Source: Pinguiococcus pyrenoidosus (Eukaryota; Sar; Pinguiophyceae; Pinguiochrysidales; Pinguiochrysidaceae). Taken from it: DNA of 20,730 nt. The stretch spans positions 1 to 20,730 of the forward strand of contig JAAMXY010001466.1 in NCBI GenBank assembly GCA_019677205.1, given 5' to 3'. Positions 7,036 to 20,730 of the stretch are shown here, piece by piece (position 1 is the stretch's first letter; each line of letters begins with the position of its first letter). The notes under the pieces were generated by a model. The model was not told the origin of the DNA, did no database searches, and worked only from the letters and a program-made list of their open reading frames with translations. Made by a program: the position numbers and the translations under genes.

Positions 7036-9480
7036 CTACTCCTTCGTGCATGCGGCCAATATCGCGATCGCCACGACCAGCGCTCCAAACAGGATGGACT
7101 CGACGAGAGACTTCGCTCTGCGCGCGTCCTTGAACACATCTTCCGGCATCGTGGCGAAGGTGTGGCTCTTCACAACTTCGCCGACCGTGTCAAAGCCGTC
7201 CTCACCCACCTTGTGCACCGCAAGCTTCAAGTGCTCATGCTCGAGTCGGAAGAGGGCCCACATACTTCGTCGCCCGATCTCCAAGACCGCAAAGAGCGGG
7301 TTCAGATACTCCTGGAGCTTCACTCCAAACGGATCGCCCTTGTCCGTCGGAATCAGGGAGAGCGTCCACGTCATGCGCAACAGCAGGTCAACGTGCATAG
7401 CGGAATAGTAAAGGATGCGCAGCCGCGGGTTGGTCGGGGCGGCGTACATCAGCCTTTCGCGCAGGAGCCCGGACTGGCGCTTCGGAAGCGGCCGCCTTCC
7501 CTCCGGAGCTTCGTCTAGAAACTGCAGCAGGCCCCAATCCATTCGCAGATCCCAAAAGAATTGATACAATGACGCGGACAGGAAGAGGATGAGCCATACC
7601 GATTGAAGGATCCCTGAGGCGCCGGAGCTCCACGACGGATGGAAGATGCCGAACAACGACACACTCTGCGCCAGCGCGTACTTGAAGGCATTTGCCAAGT
7701 ACGGCCAGCGCTTTCCACTCCGTCCGTACTGGTGCAGGCACTGCATACATCGCCACCAGAGCGGCAAGACGCTGATGATGGGGATGGCCACCGCCGCCGT
7801 AAACGAGCCTGATCTGCAGCTCGGCGAGTCGGGCCCGCTCTGGCTCGCGTCGGGTGCTCGAAAGTCGCCGGAAATGATGAAGCATGCGGACAGGGCGAGG
7901 TCGGTCCAGACGCGGACCATACTCGTGATCACATCCGCCACGAACGTATGCTGAAACAGCACCTCGGAGAATGGGGACAGCAAGACGCTTCCAATGGTGA
8001 CGATCAGCGTGCGGCGCTGATACCAGGGGAACAGCTGCCGCCAAGCCAGGAAAGCCACCAAGACGGCGGGCAGCACCCAGTGCTCTAGGTCATCGGCGAA
8101 GCCGGTGTCCTGGCGGACCACCTTGAAGTACAGGACCAGGTTCGCTCCGTAGAAGATCGTCGACAGGGACGCTTCGTCGAAGACCTCGTGGTAGTTCATG
8201 GCGAAGTTCCTGTCCAATCCCATGATGTCCACCCAGTTCACTCCGACGCGGCCCCAGATGTACGTCAGCGCTCCCCAGCACCAGAGAAGCAGAATCATCT
8301 CGCCGCATGCCCTGTAGAGGTGCCAGAGAGGATCCTTGAAGAGATTGTACGCCGAGGGATGCCGCTCGTCCGTGCTGTCCACAATCACGTCCCAAATGAA
8401 CCACACGATGAAGCCGCAGCCGACTCCGGTGCGCCACCCCAGATGAAAGACATCGAAGCCTCGGAGGTGCACCTTCTCGAGGCTTAGCAGCGCCCGCGCT
8501 ACCCCGACGTCCCCTTCCCCAAACGCCTCCGCGTAGCTCTGCTCGATCTCGGCCTGCATCTCATGGAGGTTTCGACGCTGCACAAACTCCAGATCGCCGA
8601 CCCACTGCAGCATTTGGGCTTTGATGGGTGCCGCTGGGAACAGGTGATCGTGGCGCTTGAGTATCTTCGCCGTCGCGGCGTAGTTGAGCGAGGCGAATCT
8701 ATCCAGGTCGCGGCATCGCTTGTGCAGACTGTACATCGCATGCTGCAGAGACCTCTCCTGCCGGGAGAAGTCCTTGCACTCGGAACTCACTGCATTCGCG
8801 AGGTCATGGAAAGTCTCAGCAGCGGCACTGTGCGCGCTGGGACTGATGCAGCGCCTCTCTCGCGCGCTCTGCGCGGTTCCAAAGTGCACGTCCAGAAGCC
8901 CTCTCTGGAGCTCCAACCGCGCATCGCATTGGTGAAGCTTCCACAGATAGAAGCGATTCACTTTCTGCACCTCTTGTCGCAGCTTGTGCGCAAACTTGGG
9001 GTGCTTCTCCTTGGAGATCAGCGGCGTCTGCTCCGAAGCGGGGACCTCCTCCTGGCCATTCGGCGCGGACAAGCACTCCAGCTCCGACTCCTCAGCGGCG
9101 TCCTCACCTTGCGCAGACGTGAAAGTATCTACCATACCAAGCGAAGCCAACAGTGGTTAGCGCATCGGCGGCGAAGGAATTTGCGCCAACCAACTTGTGT
9201 GCGCGAGGAATCATCGGTCGCTTTCAGCTTCGGAATGCGAGATCCGCACTTACGGAAGTTGCGGAGGCTCGGAGGTGGACCCGACAACTCTTCGTTCAGC
9301 GCTTCTCCCAGACCCTATACGTGAGAGGTGTCCACCGCGATGCTCAGATCGGAGAGGTCCGGCGTCGCAGCGCGTCTTGTGGCCTGGCGATGGCGTTTGG
9401 ATACCCACCTCGTAGTCCAGGTACTCCTTGGACCAGCGCGCCTTCCGATGGGCACGCAGGACATCTGCGAAGCCTCCCAT
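7036..9480 (-). CDS. SPX-EXS domain phosphate exporter homologue (XPR1/PHO1 family)
   Basis: Three exons give about 734 residues: 9409-9480, 9254-9314 and about 7036-9107. The first begins MGGFADVLRAHRKARWSKEY, matching the start of SPX domains. The second continues with GLGEALNEEL. The third carries the rest of SPX, including KVNRFYLWK and LNYAATAKILKRHD. The latter corresponds to the lysine-rich helix that binds inositol pyrophosphates in XPR1-type proteins. Several hydrophobic segments and the EXS domain follow, with FRLEHEHL near the end, the conserved RxENEHL element. The family exports inorganic phosphate across plasma or Golgi membranes. Donors at 9408 (GAG|GTGGGT) and 9253 (TTCC|GTAAGT) are good. 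The last acceptor is uncertain: CAAG at 9108 is used here, but GGTAG about 18 bp upstream keeps the same frame. The C-terminus ends in a hydrophobic stretch. Confidence 0.9.
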
Positions 9481-10070: not shown

Positions 10071-11016
10071 CTAGTTGTTGTTCGAGCCCTGGCTGGAGAT
10101 GACCACCGGGATAATCACAGCAGCCAAGACCGCGAGGATGATGGCCGCGATGATGAGTTTCATTTTGCAGTTCTTCCACCACATGTGCTTCCGCAGATCG
10201 TGCGCCTTTCGGAAGAGACCGCAGCAGCAGATTCTCGTTGAGTCCGTCTGGCCCATCCACCGCAAGCATGCGCCCGACAGCGAGGATGTTTTGCTTTACC
10301 TGCTTCTTGAACACACCGGCTTGGGCTTGAAGCTCCTCCGCAGACTTCTCCAGCGCCTCAATCTTGTGCGTCCCCTCCAGCGCCTGCCGAACGTTCTCCT
10401 GCATGGTGATCTTGACGCTCTCCACCTGCAACGCAAAGAAGCACCGCAGCATTCCCTCAGGTATTGCGGCGCCGCCAGAGCTCGACGGTGGAAGGGCTGC
10501 ACCTTTGCGTTGAGTGCCGTGAGCTGGTCAAGCTCCTCCAGGTTGTCGTACTTGGCGCAGAGCTTGGTGAGGTGCGTCGACATGGTGCGCGTGAGGCCAT
10601 TCTCGTTGGCCTTTAGGCTCTTATCCCCGACTTTGGCCACAAAGGTCCGCTGGAACTCCTCCAGGCACTGATGCGCGAACCGCAGCGGATACTGCGACCG
10701 CGTGATGAGGATGAACACCCGACCCGCATCGTCTGCGCGCGGGGGGAGAATCAGTTCTCTCTGTCACACGCGCGCCGCACGGCCGGCGCAGGACGCCGAA
10801 GACGCCGGTGAGCATACCTCCGGTAAGGTGCCAGGTTGTGCCACTGACGTCGAAGTTGTAGACGGTGCCTGGGCGCATGTTCATCTGCTGGCGCAGCACT
10901 GTCTTCACGCTGTCCGGGTCCGTTTTCACGTTGTAGCTGTGCTGCGCGACCACCACCCGGTCCGCCAGCCGCGCCACGCCCACATAGTACACATTATTTC
11001 GTCCCGCCTGTGACAT
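10071..11016 (-). CDS. longin-type R-SNARE (VAMP7 / plant VAMP72-like) with Gly at the central layer
   Basis: Four exons, 10818-11016, 10503-10732, 10300-10425 and 10071-10205, give 229 residues. The introns are 84, 77 and 94 bp, all GT-AG. The N-terminal longin domain includes YYVGVARLADRVVVAQHSY and VFILITRSQYPLRFAHQCLE. The SNARE motif runs from about residue 146 to 195 and leads into KHMWWKN, a single C-terminal membrane anchor (LIIAAIILAVLAAVIIPVV) and a short Asn-rich luminal tail. Such proteins drive fusion of transport vesicles with endosomal, vacuolar or plasma membrane. Aligned without gaps to the synaptobrevin motif around VLERDQKL, this protein reads ALEGTHKI. The arginine of the ionic zero layer is therefore replaced by glycine (GGG codon, 10372-10374). 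The ATG at 11016 begins directly at the longin domain. Confidence 0.9.
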
Positions 11017-11711: not shown

Positions 11712-12972
11712 ATGGCCCGTCGATGGTGGCTGCTGCTGCCGCTCTGCTTCGCCTCCAGCGCCAGCTTTCGTCCGTTTCATCTGGATGCAGACTACGTTGG
11801 GATCATCAGCCATCACGAGGCGCGTCAGCTCCTCGCCCTTCGCCATGCGGCACACGCCGTGGCCAACGCTCCACTGCAAGTGTCCCTCGACTTGGGCCGC
11901 CACGCGACCGCCGACCACGTCGAGATAGCTGACGAAGGCTTGCTGCTGAGGAGTGGTGGGGAAAGCGTCTGCACCTGGGCAGACCTGAAGAAGATCTGCA
12001 AGAAAGCGGACAAAGGACAGCAGGTACGGCGCGCCCTGAGGTCATCCACGAGTAGGAACGTGTTGTTATTTCTTCGTTCTTTTTGTCCCTGCGTTTTGTT
12101 GTCACCATGGAAGATGCAATGTGACGGTCTCCTTGTTTCCTTCCACCCCGAATAGGGCTGCTATCAGCTGTTCTGCGATGGCAGCCCGCCTCAGAAGGTC
12201 TCGTGCTTGAGTCCCAATACGCAGCGTCCCGCGTCGCTCATGCCTCCGCTGTATGCCGGTGGGGCCCCCACCATGCTGCTCGGGGGCTTCAGCATGCACC
12301 GCATCAGCGGTGGCGACCAAAAGAGCAGCATGGATCCCATGGAAGACACCAGGAACAAGATTGCCGCCCTCGGCGCGGATCGGCTCTATGGAGAGGTACG
12401 CACTTGGAAGCGAGGCATGTTGAGGGCATGCCCAGCAAGCATAGGCCCGAGCGTATGATTGACGCCAGATCCCTACTGGTCTTGCTTGACTCCCACGCTA
12501 GGTTTTGGACACGTGCTGTGGTCTGGGCTACACGGCGATCGAGGCGGCGCGGAGCTCAGGCGTCACCAAAGTAGTGACCATCGAGTTGGACGACGCGTCC
12601 ATCGAGATGTGCGAGGCGAACCCCTGGAGCTGGCCTCTCTTTGGCGATGAAGAGAACCTCGATGTGGATTTACGTCGCGGAGATGCATGCGAGATCGTGA
12701 CCTCCTTGGCCGACGAGCAGTTCTCCGCGATCATCCACGACCCGCCCGCGCTCGCCCTGTGCAAGGACACCGACTTGTACTCCCTGTCCTTTTACGAGCA
12801 GCTCCGGCGCGTCCTCAAGCGTGGCGGGAAGATCTTCCACTACATCGGGAATCCAGATTCGAAGGAAAGTGGGCGACTGTACCGCGGCATCTCCTCGCGA
12901 TTGCAGGACGCCGGCTTCGGCAGTGTGAAGACGGACAAGACGGCATTCGGCCTCGTAGCCAAAAGGATGTGA
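11712..12972 (+). CDS. archaeal-type class I SAM methyltransferase with plastid-type leader
   Basis: Three exons, 11712-12023, 12156-12395 and 12502-12972, give 340 residues. The introns are 132 and 106 bp, both phase 0. Residues 1-18 are a signal peptide (RRWWLLLPLCFASSAS) followed by FRPF, which resembles the ASAF-type cleavage motif of complex red plastids. The body contains MHRISGG with PMEDTRNKI, SAM motif I VLDTCCGLGYTAIEA, the acidic end of strand 2 (VTIELDD), HDPPALAL, FYEQLRRVLKRGGKIFHY and GNPDSKE. I recognise this full-length order from the predicted archaeal methyltransferases of the COG2521 type, whose substrate is not firmly known to me. The DPP motif suggests a nucleic acid or small-molecule amine target, which is inference. 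The gene lies 204 bp from the convergent RAP-domain gene. Confidence 0.85.
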
Positions 12973-13176: not shown

Positions 13177-15378
13177 TCAGTCCACTCGGGACTTCTGCCC
13201 ATCCTTCGGGAAGGGCCTGTAGGACGAGAAATCCCTATCGCTGAAGGTGATGACCTTCCGCAAGCCTATCTTTCGCTGAACAAATCTGTGGCGAACCGAA
13301 GCGCAGTCAGACTCATGCTCCTCTTGCAAGCGGTGCAGCGGCGCTTTCATGTACCTCTTTCGCTCCATACTCGACCAGAAGGGAATGCGATCAAAGTCGT
13401 AGTAGGGGATCTGAGCCACGCGCCAGCCCCGCTGCCGCAGCATGCGATGCTTGAGGTGCGTGTGACCCAAGGACCGCCTGAGGAATCGCAAGGGGGTGAG
13501 AAGGCGACCTCTACAACACTTCGCGGACGGAAGCAAGCGCAGTAGCAGTGCAGGAGGGCAGGTCGCAAAGTACCTGGTATTCCGCGTGTAGTGATCCGGG
13601 CCGTCGACCTCCAAGGCCACGCCCAAGCTCGGAATGATGATGTCGGCATCCTCGTCCTGCTCGTTCTGATGCCGGACACCTAGGCCCCGAAGAGCATGGC
13701 TCACCGACTCGTGCCGCGCGCTGGACGACTTTGGTCGTTCCTTCTCCTCCTTCCATTCTCTCCGCAACATGCGGCAGAACGCGTTCTTCAGCTTGACCTG
13801 CCGCCGCTCGAAGTCAAGGGGCCTTCGCTTCATGGCCTCCGGAACTAGTTCACAGTCCACCCAGCATGCAGAAGGTTCCTGGAAGGCCTCTTCGTCTAGA
13901 TCGACTCCGAGCGGCAACTTCCGCTGCGCGGCGTCTGTGAGGCGAGGGTAAAGGCTGGAGAAAACCTGCATTGCGGCGAAAAGAGAAACGCCGCTCGGTG
14001 AGCCCCCGTGCGCGGTATATTGCGGGGTGGCCATCTCATGGCCATCTCACTGCCCACCTGAAAGAGCTGCCTCTTGTGGGAAGGGAGCAGCGAGCTTCGC
14101 TGCCCTGCCTCTTCCAGCGCAAGAAGGCGCACGTGGTCCCAGAATCCATCGCCCGCCACAGCAGTGTCCGAGTCGCGCTCCAGGGCTTGAAACGGGATGA
14201 CCGTCAAGGACCAGGCGATGTTCGCCACCTCCTGATCATTCATCCGTCGAAAGCCGCTCTGGCCTTCCTTTTGCCCCTTTACGACGCGTCGCTCGAGCTC
14301 CTTCCTCAGCGCTGCGAAAAACGGAGCGGACAGCACATACATGCGAGCGTAGGAATAGATCGTGGTGGACAGCTCCTGGCCGGAGCAGCTGCGCAGCAGC
14401 TTCGGAAGGCGCGGATGCGTCCCGAGCCGACGGAAGAGCATCTCGTCGTCGAACCTGGCCTTGGTGAGGCCATTGAGGATCTGGACGAGGTCTGCGCAGC
14501 TGACCGCATCGAGGTCCACCATCGGAAGCAGCGCCTCCAGGGCCGCGACACACTCCTCCTCCACCCGCCAGTCGTTCGCCAGGAGAATGCCGAAGCCCCA
14601 GATAAGCATCGCGACATCTTTGGACTGCAACACCTCTCCCGTTTCAAGCAGCGTTTGCAGCGAATCCGCCAACGCTTTCACTACCAAGGGTGGGACCGCC
14701 GCGTCTGTCACGGGTTTGCCGGAAGCGACTTAGCAACGGCACGTCTTGCCACGGGATGAACACGTACGCACCCATCCTGGCCAGCGAGTACACCATGATG
14801 GCCACATCCTGCACCTTGATGTCCTCTTGCGCCAGCTGATGCTGCGTCCAGAGGAAGAAGCCGGCCTGAAGCGCCTGGGACCGGCTGGGCACCAACGTCA
14901 CCGCGTAGAGGGCCATGGCGATCTCCCCGGTTCTGGCCCTCTCGCCGCCCAGGAGCCGCTGGCCCAGCGCCGCGCCGAAGATGTCCACCTCCGTAGGCTT
15001 TAAGCCCAGCTTGGCGGTGCTCCAGACCAGATTGCTCAGCTGACGGGCCGTCAGGCGGGGCAAAATCGAGTCGCGCTGGAGTTCTCGGAGGATCATGCGG
15101 GCGCAGTGGCGCGCCTCCTTGGGCTCGGCGCTCTGCTTGGCGATTCTGGAGAGCGCGGCGCAGAGAGTAAAGTGATTCGCGAGGTGCGCCTCCTTATTCA
15201 GCAAGTCTATGGTCTCGCAAGGGCGAGAGGTCCGCATGATCCGCTTGGTGGTCCGGGTGGACACGCGCGCCGACGCCGCCCACTCGCTGCCTTTGAAGCC
15301 GTCCCCAGTGGGCAGCCACAGCAGGCAGAATATCAGAATTAGACGCCCCATCGTGGGGCGGAAGTGCGTCCAACGCAT
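13177..15378 (-). CDS. RAP-domain protein, probably organellar RNA-binding
   Basis: Four exons, 14772-15378, 14058-14704, 13574-13965 and 13177-13477, give 648 residues. The introns are 67, 92 and 96 bp. The start (second ATG at 15351) reads GRLILIFCLLWLPTGDG then FKG: a signal peptide with Phe at the likely cleavage site, so plastid targeting is probable. The middle (about 60-480) is a series of helical repeats of the kind found in FASTK, OPR and RAP proteins (for example LSNLVWSTAKLGL, VAMLIWGFGIL, LSTTIYSYARM, VANIAWSLTVI). The C-terminus holds the RAP domain: LGVALEVDGPDHY, then after the last intron LGHTHLKHRMLRQRGWRVAQ and IPYYDFDRIP. RAP proteins act in processing, splicing or translation of chloroplast and mitochondrial RNAs. 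The 96-bp last intron has no stop, so its retention would add 32 residues. E2F-like TTTCCCGC lies 16 bp before the start. Confidence 0.88.
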
Positions 15379-16612: not shown

Positions 16613-16620
16613 GAGTCCTT

Positions 16621-16692
16621 TCGGCATACGGGACTCGAACCCGTGTCTGAGCAGTGAGAGTGCCCTATCCTGACCACCTAGACTAATGCCGA
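16621..16692 (-). tRNA. tRNA-Glu (anticodon CTC)
   Basis: The minus strand folds into a full cloverleaf of 72 bases. The acceptor stem TCGGCAT pairs perfectly with ATGCCGA. The anticodon stem GGGCA/TGCTC (one G-T pair) closes the loop CTCTCAC, with CTC at positions 34-36. The T arm ACGGG-TTCGAGT-CCCGT contains the internal B box GGTTCGAGTCC. The D arm begins TAGTCTAGGTGG, matching box A. There is no intron, and CCA is not encoded, as usual for eukaryotes. It lies between the RIIa-domain gene and the SFT2-type gene. Confidence 0.95.
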
Positions 16693-16977: not shown

Positions 16978-17975
16978 ATGTCTTGGGCGGCCAAGTTCGA
17001 GAAAGTCCAAGTGGCTCGGACAGAGGGAGATGATGAGAACGCTTCGCTACTCATGGACTTTGGGGAGGTATGCAGATGCCGGCCACACGTCAAATCCCTC
17101 CGCAGACCTCTTTAATGGGTCGTGTCTTCAGGTCGGCAAGAGCGTCCAAGATGGGTTCAACAACTTCTTTAGCAGCCTGAACGTCATGGAGAAGAAGAAT
17201 GATGGGGACGTGGAGGCGCAGAACGGAAGATCCAGGTATGTTCGGAAGAAGTCGGGCCTCCATCATCAGAAGTGACCCGCTTGCAAGGCAAAGCTCATCT
17301 TCGACCACGACGCTCAGCTCCAAGAGCGACGGCAGCATGCTTGGCGGACTCGCGAACGCTTTTCGCTCAGAAGAGACCGAGCGACCGGTTCTGGGAATGA
17401 GCTACATCGCGCGCTTTCGCGCGTTCATCAGCCTGAATATCCTGGCCATCCTGTTCTTCATGCTGGCGTTCTTCGTGGGGCTCCCGACCGTGGTGCTGCG
17501 CCCGGCCAAATTCGCCATCAGCTTCACCACCGGGAGTCTCATGATCATGCTGGCCTTTGCGGTGCTCAAGGGACCTTGGACGCACCTGAAGACGATGTGC
17601 ACGAAGGAGGTCGCGCCCTTCTCGGCGCTCTACGTGGGGTCCATGCTGGGAACTCTTTATGCATCCCTGGTAGCTCGGTCATACCTCCTGGTGATGCTCA
17701 TGTCTGCTGCGCAGCTCACCGCGCTGGGGTATTATATGGTGGCAGGTAGGTTCGCCCAGGCACCTTCACTTGCTGCTTCTTCCTTGCTTTCCTTTTCTCG
17801 TTCTCTTCCGGGCCACCACCGGCGGGCTCATCACAGCGAATCCTCTCCAGGAATCCCGGGGGGAGCGCAGGGTTTGTCACTCTTCATTACCGGCATGCGG
17901 AAGACCATCAGCGCCCTGTGCTATCCCTTCTGTCTCGCATGCAAGGCCTGTATGCGTGCCCTCACAGGTCTCTAA
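16978..17975 (+). CDS. SFT2-type Golgi vesicle transport membrane protein
   Basis: Four exons: 16978-17067, 17132-17235, 17270-17745 and 17851-17975. This gives 264 residues, or 258 if the third exon starts at 17288. The N-terminus MSWAAKFEKV and a Ser-rich cytoplasmic part lead to four hydrophobic segments starting at about residue 118 (FISLNILAILFFMLAFFVGL, FAISFTTGSLMIMLAFAVL, FSALYVGSMLGTLYASL, YLLVMLMSAAQLTALGYYMV). After the last intron comes GIPGGAQGL, the family signature corresponding to YIPGGxxGL. SFT2 proteins aid retrograde fusion of endosome-derived vesicles with the Golgi, partly redundantly with GOT1. The second intron is very short: 34 bp with the CATCAG acceptor or 52 bp with TTGCAAG. 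Both acceptors keep the frame. The third intron (105 bp) is free of stops, so retention would add 35 residues. Confidence 0.88.
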
Positions 17976-18622: not shown

Positions 18623-20730
18623 CTACTGCACGAAGGTAGCCTGCGAGAGATCCATGGACGCACACTGCACGCAGCCCATGATCACCTCGGGCAACTCCCG
18701 CTCTTTCTTGCCCTCCAGCACCAGTCCCATATCCACAGTGATGGTTGTCGCATAGCCTGTTGTCCACACAAACGCAGGAGGTTAGTCTGTGCCATGCCCG
18801 TGCATTCCAAGCTGGCTCGCGCATCGCAGGCACGGCTTGACTTGCCTAACGAAAGCCGCACGACGCCCGCAGCAACGCTACTGCTCCCGATGTCCACGTC
18901 AAGCTCAAAGTAGTGCGGTGCGCGATGGTAGTACTGCTTCAGCTTGGTCCCCAGGACGGCCGGCGTAGATCCGACGACGCGGCGCACAACGAAGTTTCCC
19001 TGGACGATCTTGGGGATCAACTTGAAGGTCTTGTCGCAGAGCTCGTCGTCGCCTCCGAAGAAGAAAGGCATCGCCGCGTGTGCGAAGGAGGTGTTCTTCT
19101 GGTGCCACTCCGGATCCACCGGCGTGAAATAGGCAGCAAAACTGTGGAAGCGAGGTTATTAGGAAGGCCGACCAGATCGATCTTTGACGAAGGGCGGCAG
19201 CTACCTCAAATGCGGTGGTCCGGGAATCATGATGTGGAGAACGAAGAGCCACGGGAAGCCTTCGGGGCAGCTTTCCGGCTTCGGCAGCTGGTCGGCCGGT
19301 ATCTGGCGCGGCTCCGCGTCCGGTTCGTTGGGCTCCGAGGTGAACGTTGGCACAAAGTCGTTGCCAGTCAGCTTTCTGTAGGCCATGGCGACTCGGTTCT
19401 TCGGGTGGGCTGAGATGTTCTGCGGCACACGGCTGCTCCACTCCAGCACGTCGACGCTCAGGAGGCGGAACTGCGCTTGTCCCGCGCTGATCTTCACCCT
19501 GTCGGTGAGATAATTCGGTCCCCGCACCATGAACGTGTTGGAATCCGGCTCCGACCACTGGTCGAGGTTGAAGGGCACTGGGTTTGATTCCAGCCCAATG
19601 TCCGTTTGACGCCGCTGCGCATCCGACTTGGGAGACCTTTTGCCTGGAGGACGTATGCCGGGAACCGTTTACTCCACGCATAGCTTCCCCTTTTCTCACT
19701 GGACGAGAGGGGCAAGACCCACCTGCTGCGTTGTCAATGTCCGTCTGGACCAGATCACGGCTGAGGGAGTGTGCGTGCTTGGTTTCCTCAACCGACTCCG
19801 CTAGGGGATCGACGTCGATCGCCGCGAAACGGTTCTCCTCGAGGTGGTCGCGCAGATCAATCAGATGCAGCAACAGGACCTCGGCAAAGGTCGCCGTGAA
19901 TCCTCCCGTGCTCCACATCCACCCCTTCGGATCCACCTGCACCACGTGTGTCACGAAGCTCTCCGAGGGCTCGGGTGACCCGGGAGTCGCGAACGTCTTG
20001 TCGGGGTTCAGAGGAGCGATCGTGTACAGCGCGTGCAGCTCTCCTCGGACATAGTCATCGTCCTCCGACTGCGGACATTCGCGATGCTCCATGCTGTCGA
20101 AGACGATGATATAGTATCCATCGTCGTCCAGTCTCCAGTAGCGCATCAGGCAAAAATCGCGAGCCGTCGTCCAGGTCGGGCCCAGGTCAATGGGGCGCAG
20201 CTTCATGTGGATCACGTCGGCATGGTCGTCGATCGTCTCCACGATTCTCACACTCTCCACGCAGCCTCGGCGCAAGTCTGGTGGCATCGACAGCAGCGCC
20301 ACGAACGCCTGCAGTGGTGTCGCCTTGACCGAGACGGCCGCTTTTCGGGTCAGGAGATTCGTGTTCCTGCGAACAAGCGCCCATCTCGTCAGTCCGTCGA
20401 CCCATGTCCAGAGGTGGCCTCGCAGCCTCGCAGCTTGTCTTACTTTGGCGCGGCCTCGTCCTTGAAGACGCGCAGCCCTTGCGTGACCTTGTCCAGCACC
20501 CAGTTCGTATTATGCGTCCACGTGCCGACGTGTGCAAGCTTGATCTCTGCCGGGGGAGGCGCGTCTGCCGTGATGCTCAGTAGCTTGCCCCCGAAGCTGA
20601 TCAGCCCATTGCTCCCCGAGCTGTTCGCGCCGCTGTTGATGTAGCCGTCGCACCACCGGACCTGATTGATGGAAGGCGTGCTCTTGTGAATCGAGGCTTG
20701 CCGACCATCCCACCCCACAGCCCCCCCCTC
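18623..20730 (-). CDS. START and DUF1336 (EDR2 C-terminal) protein, 5' end beyond the window
   Basis: Five visible exons, 20444 to beyond 20730, 19723-20366, 19205-19577, 18846-19141 and 18623-18756, give about 577 residues. The left-hand boundary of the first visible exon is unknown. A START lipid-binding domain spans about residues 65-260 (DKVTQGLRVF, CLMRYWRLDDDGYYIIVFDS, VVQVDPKGWMWSTGG). DUF1336 follows: WSEPDSNTFMVRGPNYLTDR, FRLLSVDVLEW, VQGNFVVRRVVGSTPAVLG, APHYFELDVDIGSSSVAAGV and, in the last exon, GYATTITVDMGLVLEG with ELPE. Plant EDR2 has this order after a PH domain, which would lie outside or be absent. The family is thought to bind membrane lipids and act in stress or defence signalling. 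Introns are 77, 145, 63 and 89 bp. The last begins with GC, not GT (TTAG|GCAAGT). Confidence 0.88.

Follow-up and report, generated by a model that had tools for sequence, protein, structure and literature searches.

A gene of the m4(2)C synthase family in Pinguiococcus pyrenoidosus with a plastid-type leader and a proposed role at helix 31 of plastid 16S rRNA

The analysed stretch of DNA, 20,730 nucleotides of Pinguiococcus pyrenoidosus contig JAAMXY010001466.1 (hereafter the window), encodes on its plus strand, at positions 11712-12972, a methyltransferase dependent on S-adenosylmethionine (SAM). Its coding sequence is read from three exons and comprises 1023 nt in frame, equivalent to 340 amino acids. 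Both by sequence and by fold, the protein belongs to the family of N4,N4-dimethylcytidine (m4(2)C) synthases, and it starts with a leader resembling those of plastid proteins in algae that have red-type secondary plastids. From this we infer the cell compartment, the substrate, the base and the product: we think it somewhat more probable than an even chance that the nucleus-encoded enzyme is imported into the plastid and methylates the helix-31 cytosine of plastid 16S rRNA.

A protein search returned 4227 matches at E ≤ 1e-3 among 7996 scored candidates, with a top E-value of 3.9e-125, so that homology is far beyond chance. The closest solved structure, PDB 8vyd, is entitled m4(2)C synthase of the archaeal ribosome, has a Thermococcus-like sequence, and matches residues 36-339 of the window protein with the N-terminal domain included. 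We take it to be TK2045 of Fluke et al. (2024, PNAS); the abstract of that study reportedly notes the family in each domain of life. The initial annotation of the window, made from its sequence alone, had recognized a SAM methyltransferase whose family has members in archaea, predicted enzymes for which it gave the name COG2521, with similarity along the whole chain including the part ahead of the Rossmann fold. The sequence and structure matches bear this out, and the motifs it quoted, namely MHRI, PMEDT, VLDTCCGLGYTAIEA, HDPP and FYEQLRRVLKRGGKIFHYIGNP, are all located in the protein. It had left the target molecule unnamed, a point superseded by the title of the nearest structure. As the fold is related to that of spermidine synthase, an enzyme of the secretory route or the periplastid compartment acting on a small molecule was considered as well. 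This is very improbable: the protein scores far under the cut-offs of the NCBIfam polyamine aminopropyltransferase models (28.7, 15.6 and 33.3 bits against 260, 249.55 and 472), and 8vyd is matched over a greater length and far more strongly.

The blocks MHR, DP..DT..K, GLGYTA, NPWS and HDPP of the m4(2)C synthase family are all present in the window protein. Among the rows examined, MHR is found in all 35 algal, all 6 Thermococcales-type and all 83 bacterial ones, the bacterial frames having been selected by requiring MHR or MHK (all 80 loci contained one). Throughout these three groups MHR and HDPP occur in all rows and DT and NPWS in nearly all. HDPP is presumably catalytic, by comparison with N-methyltransferases of the DPP type.

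The proposed mechanism may be outlined as follows. After import into the plastid, the methyltransferase would bind the plastid 30S subunit, or one of its late precursors, and use SAM to methylate the helix-31 loop cytosine of the 16S rRNA at its exocyclic N4 amine. If the chemistry equals that of 8vyd, the substrate would be the cytosine equivalent to E. coli C967, i.e., C916 of the Arabidopsis plastid, and the product would be m4(2)C or N4-methylcytidine (m4C) adjoining the P site. The neighbouring plastid G915 is given as the counterpart of E. coli G966 (PMC8394491). Plastid C916 was reported as bisulfite-protected in six species tested, including the ochrophyte Nannochloropsis oculata, at levels of 31 to 87% (PMC4535395). 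A 2021 review lists the position as a 5-methylcytidine (m5C) common to bacteria and plastids whose enzyme was still to be identified, and names TRM4E as a candidate for plastid m5C marks (PMC8394491). N4-methylcytidine and N4,2'-O-dimethylcytidine are described as resisting bisulfite (PMC3694839). Because N4-methylated cytosines resist bisulfite, m4(2)C at C916 would be possible in the algae holding the gene and compatible with the bisulfite data. More tentatively, and with a chance that we put somewhat below even, the plastid ribosomes of these red algae and ochrophytes may carry m4(2)C or m4C at helix 31, either in place of m5C or alongside it, a Chloroflexota-like enzyme having displaced the cyanobacterial RsmB route. 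Our literature search, in which subscription journals were thinly covered, found no paper on a eukaryotic member of the family.

Localization of the window protein in the plastid is likely, judging from the leader. As the initial annotation had noted, a hydrophobic leader ends in ...ASSAS^FRPF; the cleavage-type site SSAS^FRP is assigned by the (-3,-1) rule only, which places Phe19 at +1. For the high-confidence plastid class, ASAFind is reported to inspect F, W, Y or L at this position (PMC12136025). For comparison, we assembled 99 rows, consisting of the window protein and its best 100 matches minus two models of the window gene itself. After removal of 21 rows for want of a starting Met or for a leader shorter than 12 residues, a motif rule assigned 15 of the rest to the red type, which left 63. 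A strong hydrophobic core near the start is found in 54 of the 63 non-red leaders and absent in nine. Phe follows a cleavage-type site in 24 of the 54 cored leaders, against a mean of 6.3 and a maximum of 14 in 2000 shuffled draws; for F, W, Y or L together the count is 39 of 54 (shuffled mean 22.4, maximum 34, 2000 draws), some of these sites falling within the hydrophobic core. The red-type leaders are net positive in 15 of 15 cases, and 11 of the 15 do not reach the threshold for hydrophobicity. Sorting by the motif rule is coarse, with P0063 and P0072 looking ochrophyte and P0089 and P0097 grouping with red algae in the tree but scored as non-red without core. Basic leaders of red type and signal-core leaders of ochrophyte type appear to form the pattern expected of primary and secondary plastids, respectively. 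The bacterial proteins P0093, P0096 and P0100 have three residues ahead of the conserved domain.

Since RsmB marks the same base, genomes carrying the family might lack RsmB. Both RsmB halves were found in one frame in a single one of 50 carrier genomes drawn from the 80 loci (an Eisenbacteria genome, G044). Within the order of the gammaproteobacterial carrier G045, 189 of 194 genomes have an RsmB-profile match at E ≤ 1e-30 (181 above the curated cut-off), and G045 is one of the five without. In the order of carriers G021 and G027, a sample searched for RsmB only, 98 of 116 genomes gave a match (94 above the cut-off); the 18 genomes that gave none include both carriers. The chances of these two draws are 0.023 and 0.026, genome incompleteness not being allowed for. 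Three further gammaproteobacterial carriers (G025, G036 and G050), for which there is no background rate, have no full-length RsmB either; in G025 and G036 the methyltransferase half reads RsmF-like. In the Pinguiococcus assembly no RsmB-profile match above the cut-off was found, and seven partial matches originate from four loci, three of which look like NSUN2 (C264), NSUN6 (C306) and NSUN5 (C520). Altogether, the absence of RsmB lends weak support to the idea of a shared base.

Several observations weigh against the proposed role at plastid helix 31. With respect to the base, the Pinguiococcus assembly yielded no organelle 16S sequence by the Rfam bacterial small subunit model or by a short degenerate helix-31 pattern; as the Rfam search was positive in no more than 9 of 14 control genomes and scored 5 of 468 candidates, this is no proof of absence. 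The fourth locus with a partial RsmB match, C218 (L107), is an RsmB-like gene of at least two open frames with no NusB part detected, the product of which could serve the plastid or the mitochondrion. In Chloroflexota the RsmB test is uninformative because the phylum nearly lacks RsmB regardless: at E ≤ 1e-15 a full-length RsmB occurs in 1 of 201 genomes, and that one lies outside the 23 carriers (E < 1e-50, two of them known as carriers beforehand). With respect to the leader, the ten residues FRPFHLDADY between the presumed cleavage site and the conserved domain, with one Arg, two Asp and no Ser or Thr, are atypical of a transit peptide, which is expected to be rich in hydroxylated and poor in acidic residues and net positive; the length of transit peptides is reported to be less critical (PMC4329603). 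Furthermore, P0001, the nearest relative, shows no clear Phe behind its leader, and a hydrophobic core is missing from the brown algal models P0003 and P0004. Finally, the pair of residues following HDPP differs: all 6 Thermococcales-type rows have RF and 58 of 83 bacterial rows have xF, whereas 30 of 35 algal rows show A and then R, Q or L. F stands in second place in none of the 35, and the window protein has AL. As the pair differs between the algae and the other rows, base recognition may have changed.

This last difference bears directly on an alternative in which a plastid-imported N-methyltransferase of the same fold has shifted to another substrate, be it another rRNA cytosine, a tRNA or a protein. 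The post-HDPP pair, beside the active site, appears to have changed in the algal clade and would leave room for such a shift; it is not taken as defining for the family, since bacteria vary there too. Along this line, six other genomes in the order of G045 hold divergent homologues (L108-L113) together with full-length RsmB, indicating that the MHR block is changeable and that family and RsmB can coexist. The Arg of MHR is missing from these homologues, as are further fixed residues, a distinction drawn post hoc. However, in the algal, bacterial and Thermococcales-type rows examined MHR and HDPP are invariant and DT and NPWS nearly so, and the N-terminal domain is conserved. We therefore regard a different plastid substrate as unlikely. 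As an observation in its own right, the six gammaproteobacterial homologues fall into two divergent kinds that carry MHI or MLP in place of MHR and have lost Asp214; their own substrate may be a different one.

A second alternative concerns the compartment. Hydrophobic signal-type leaders direct proteins into the endoplasmic reticulum rather than into mitochondria, and the predominance of cored leaders, with Phe at +1 more frequent than in any of the 2000 shuffled draws, argues against an enzyme serving the mitochondrial small ribosomal subunit or both organelles. Such an enzyme would suit the two coreless brown algal models, and C960 of plant mitochondrial small subunit rRNA was reported as bisulfite-protected and highly methylated in 4 of 6 species (PMC4535395). 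On balance we hold mitochondrial service to be improbable, and the plastid 16S rRNA stays the preferred target.

The origin of the gene was addressed by a search of GTDB genomes, which gave 523 matching places. The best 80 of these belong mainly to Chloroflexota, accompanied by a few Armatimonadota, Desulfobacterota, Gammaproteobacteria and others, and no archaea are among them. In a tree of 78 rows the algae form a single clade with a Shimodaira-Hasegawa-like approximate likelihood ratio test (SH-aLRT) support of 95. When the six divergent gammaproteobacterial homologues were added, SH-aLRT values were 99 for the algae and 97 for algae plus bacteria. A tree of 59 rows, from which 25 of 84 rows had been removed for speed or redundancy and for which the bootstrap had not settled, gave 100/97 and 100/98 for the same two groups; in both of the latter trees the archaeal side consists of Thermococcales alone. 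For a tree of 73 rows, nine further rows were removed, and eight named non-Thermococcales archaea and 15 other rows were added. Here the algal clade receives 100/100, and algae plus bacteria are set apart from 12 archaeal rows (ten with an organism name, P0237 and 8vyd assigned by similarity) with 100/98.9. Thus, bacterial affinity of the algal clade is well supported, while its position nested inside the bacterial part has modest support. Among the algae, a clade with four named red algae (100/96) is sister to a clade that includes the window protein, Ectocarpus and an ochromonad (100/99). Most likely, red algae gained the gene from a Chloroflexota-like bacterium, and ochrophytes gained it along with the red algal plastid.

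The initial annotation had instead suggested an old, direct transfer from archaea, followed by retargeting. The protein search and trees it called for do not favour this source, which we consider improbable: the 80 closest genome matches are all bacterial, and the split from the archaeal rows is strongly supported. The family is nevertheless widespread in archaea, with named matches in Thermoplasmata, Hadarchaeales, Aigarchaeota, Njordarchaeia, Thermoprotei and Woesearchaeota. Moreover, approximately unbiased (AU) tests left groupings of the algae with archaea unrejected, with p = 0.0625 for core archaea, 0.157 for the Woesearchaeota group, 0.294 for all non-bacterial rows and 0.0666 for Thermococcales alone. 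The AU tests are weaker than the clade supports, and the archaeal source is disfavoured rather than formally rejected. Of the retargeting, the plastid-type leader stands, but it is better read as ordinary plastid targeting that ochrophytes received from the red algal lineage, given that basic leaders are present already in the red-type copies. Plasmid records searched for the family gave weak partial matches only, and among viral contigs 25 stretches fit a family pattern, none of which was confirmed.

The gene lies in the window as read, and its features are compiled in Table 1. The two introns claimed by the initial annotation are both of the GT-AG type in phase 0, and both splice joins are bridged by continuous homologues, e.g., P0001 with 65% identity over 93% of the query. 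Because an in-frame stop ends 24 bases upstream of the ATG, the leader cannot be much longer. Only one copy was detected in the Pinguiococcus assembly of 23.7 Mb in 768 contigs. Two EukProt models of Pinguiococcus pyrenoidosus, P0052 and P0082, contain stretches of 100% identity covering 34% and 31% of the gene, respectively; they are gene fragments whose joins differ from the three-exon reading, and the homologues aligned against the chain favour the continuous reading.

Table 1. Features of the methyltransferase gene in the window.
Feature	Position	Strand	Description
Start of open reading frame (ATG)	11712	+	First Met after in-frame TAA 11685-11687
Exon 1	11712..12023	+	28-residue leader, then the initial 76 residues of the conserved protein, in its N-terminal domain; join backed by homology
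Signal-peptide-like leader MARRWWLLLPLCFASSAS	11712..11765	+	Hydrophobic core (hydropathy 1.90 over 11 residues), cleavage-type ending
Phe +1 and ten-residue FRPFHLDADY	11766..11795	+	Ahead of conserved domain; transit-peptide-like in first residue only
Intron 1	12024..12155	+	132 nt, GTACGG...GAATAG, GT-AG, phase 0
Exon 2	12156..12395	+	End of N-terminal domain and family block MHR...DP..DT..K
Met151-His152-Arg153 codons	12294..12302	+	MHR kept in family rows examined
Intron 2	12396..12501	+	106 nt, GTACGC...CGCTAG, GT-AG, phase 0
Exon 3	12502..12972	+	Rossmann-fold methyltransferase domain, including stop codon
SAM-binding motif VLDTCCGLGYTA	12502..12537	+	Within exon 3
His263-Asp-Pro-Pro266	12736..12747	+	Catalytic-type motif, presumed catalytic role

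Next to the methyltransferase gene lies a convergent neighbour (13177-15378, minus strand), with a RAP-domain frame at 13177-14046. A frame at 14644-15378 on the same strand, perhaps the start of the same gene, has a hydrophobic leader followed by Phe (...LPTGDG^FKGSEW), and the product may possibly be another plastid RNA-binding factor. Elsewhere the window contains a tRNA-Glu (CTC) gene (16620-16692, minus) and a stop-to-stop frame of 706 amino acids and phosphate-exporter type, in which an EXS domain and the final part of an SPX domain are recognized (7036-9156, minus). Other nearby frames match Got1/Sft2-like (17181-17975, plus), a piece of a longin-type SNARE under the Pfam cut-off (10296-10763, minus), and START with EDR2_C in an overlapping frame (18905-20509, minus).

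With these results an uncharacterized algal gene family gains a concrete candidate job. The chemistry of the family is no longer unknown, and the plastid role of the Pinguiococcus gene is our proposal. It offers a candidate for a different mark on the C916 base in the red plastid lineage, for a position where, according to the review, m5C enzymes remained to be identified (PMC8394491). If algae have the enzyme, a bisulfite m5C call at the helix-31 site could be mistaken; bisulfite cannot separate m5C from m4C or m4(2)C.

In comparison with known systems, the window protein shares a related Rossmann fold with spermidine synthase and matches Pfam PF01564, but among the 50 matches listed none aligns before model residue 87. 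RsmB, the 16S rRNA m5C967 methyltransferase, presumably addresses the same nucleotide in bacterial-type ribosomes; its architecture of a NusB part and a C5-cytosine methyltransferase is unrelated, and it acts on C5 instead of N4. The closest prokaryotic group, by the best genome matches, is Chloroflexota, whose proteins P0101 (Caldilineaceae, labelled at its source as an RsmD family RNA methyltransferase) and P0115 (grouping with Roseilinea) are 42% and 48% identical to the window protein and carry the same motifs. Most of them differ in having about 280 residues, starting near the conserved domain, and mostly showing xF after HDPP. With 8vyd, the algal protein has in common chain-long homology including the N-terminal domain, the same fold, and MHR, GLGYTA, NPWS and HDPP. 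Points of difference from 8vyd are its plastid-type leader and its introns, the pair AL where 8vyd has RF behind HDPP, an insertion separating MHR from the DP..DT block, and its grouping with the bacterial homologues.
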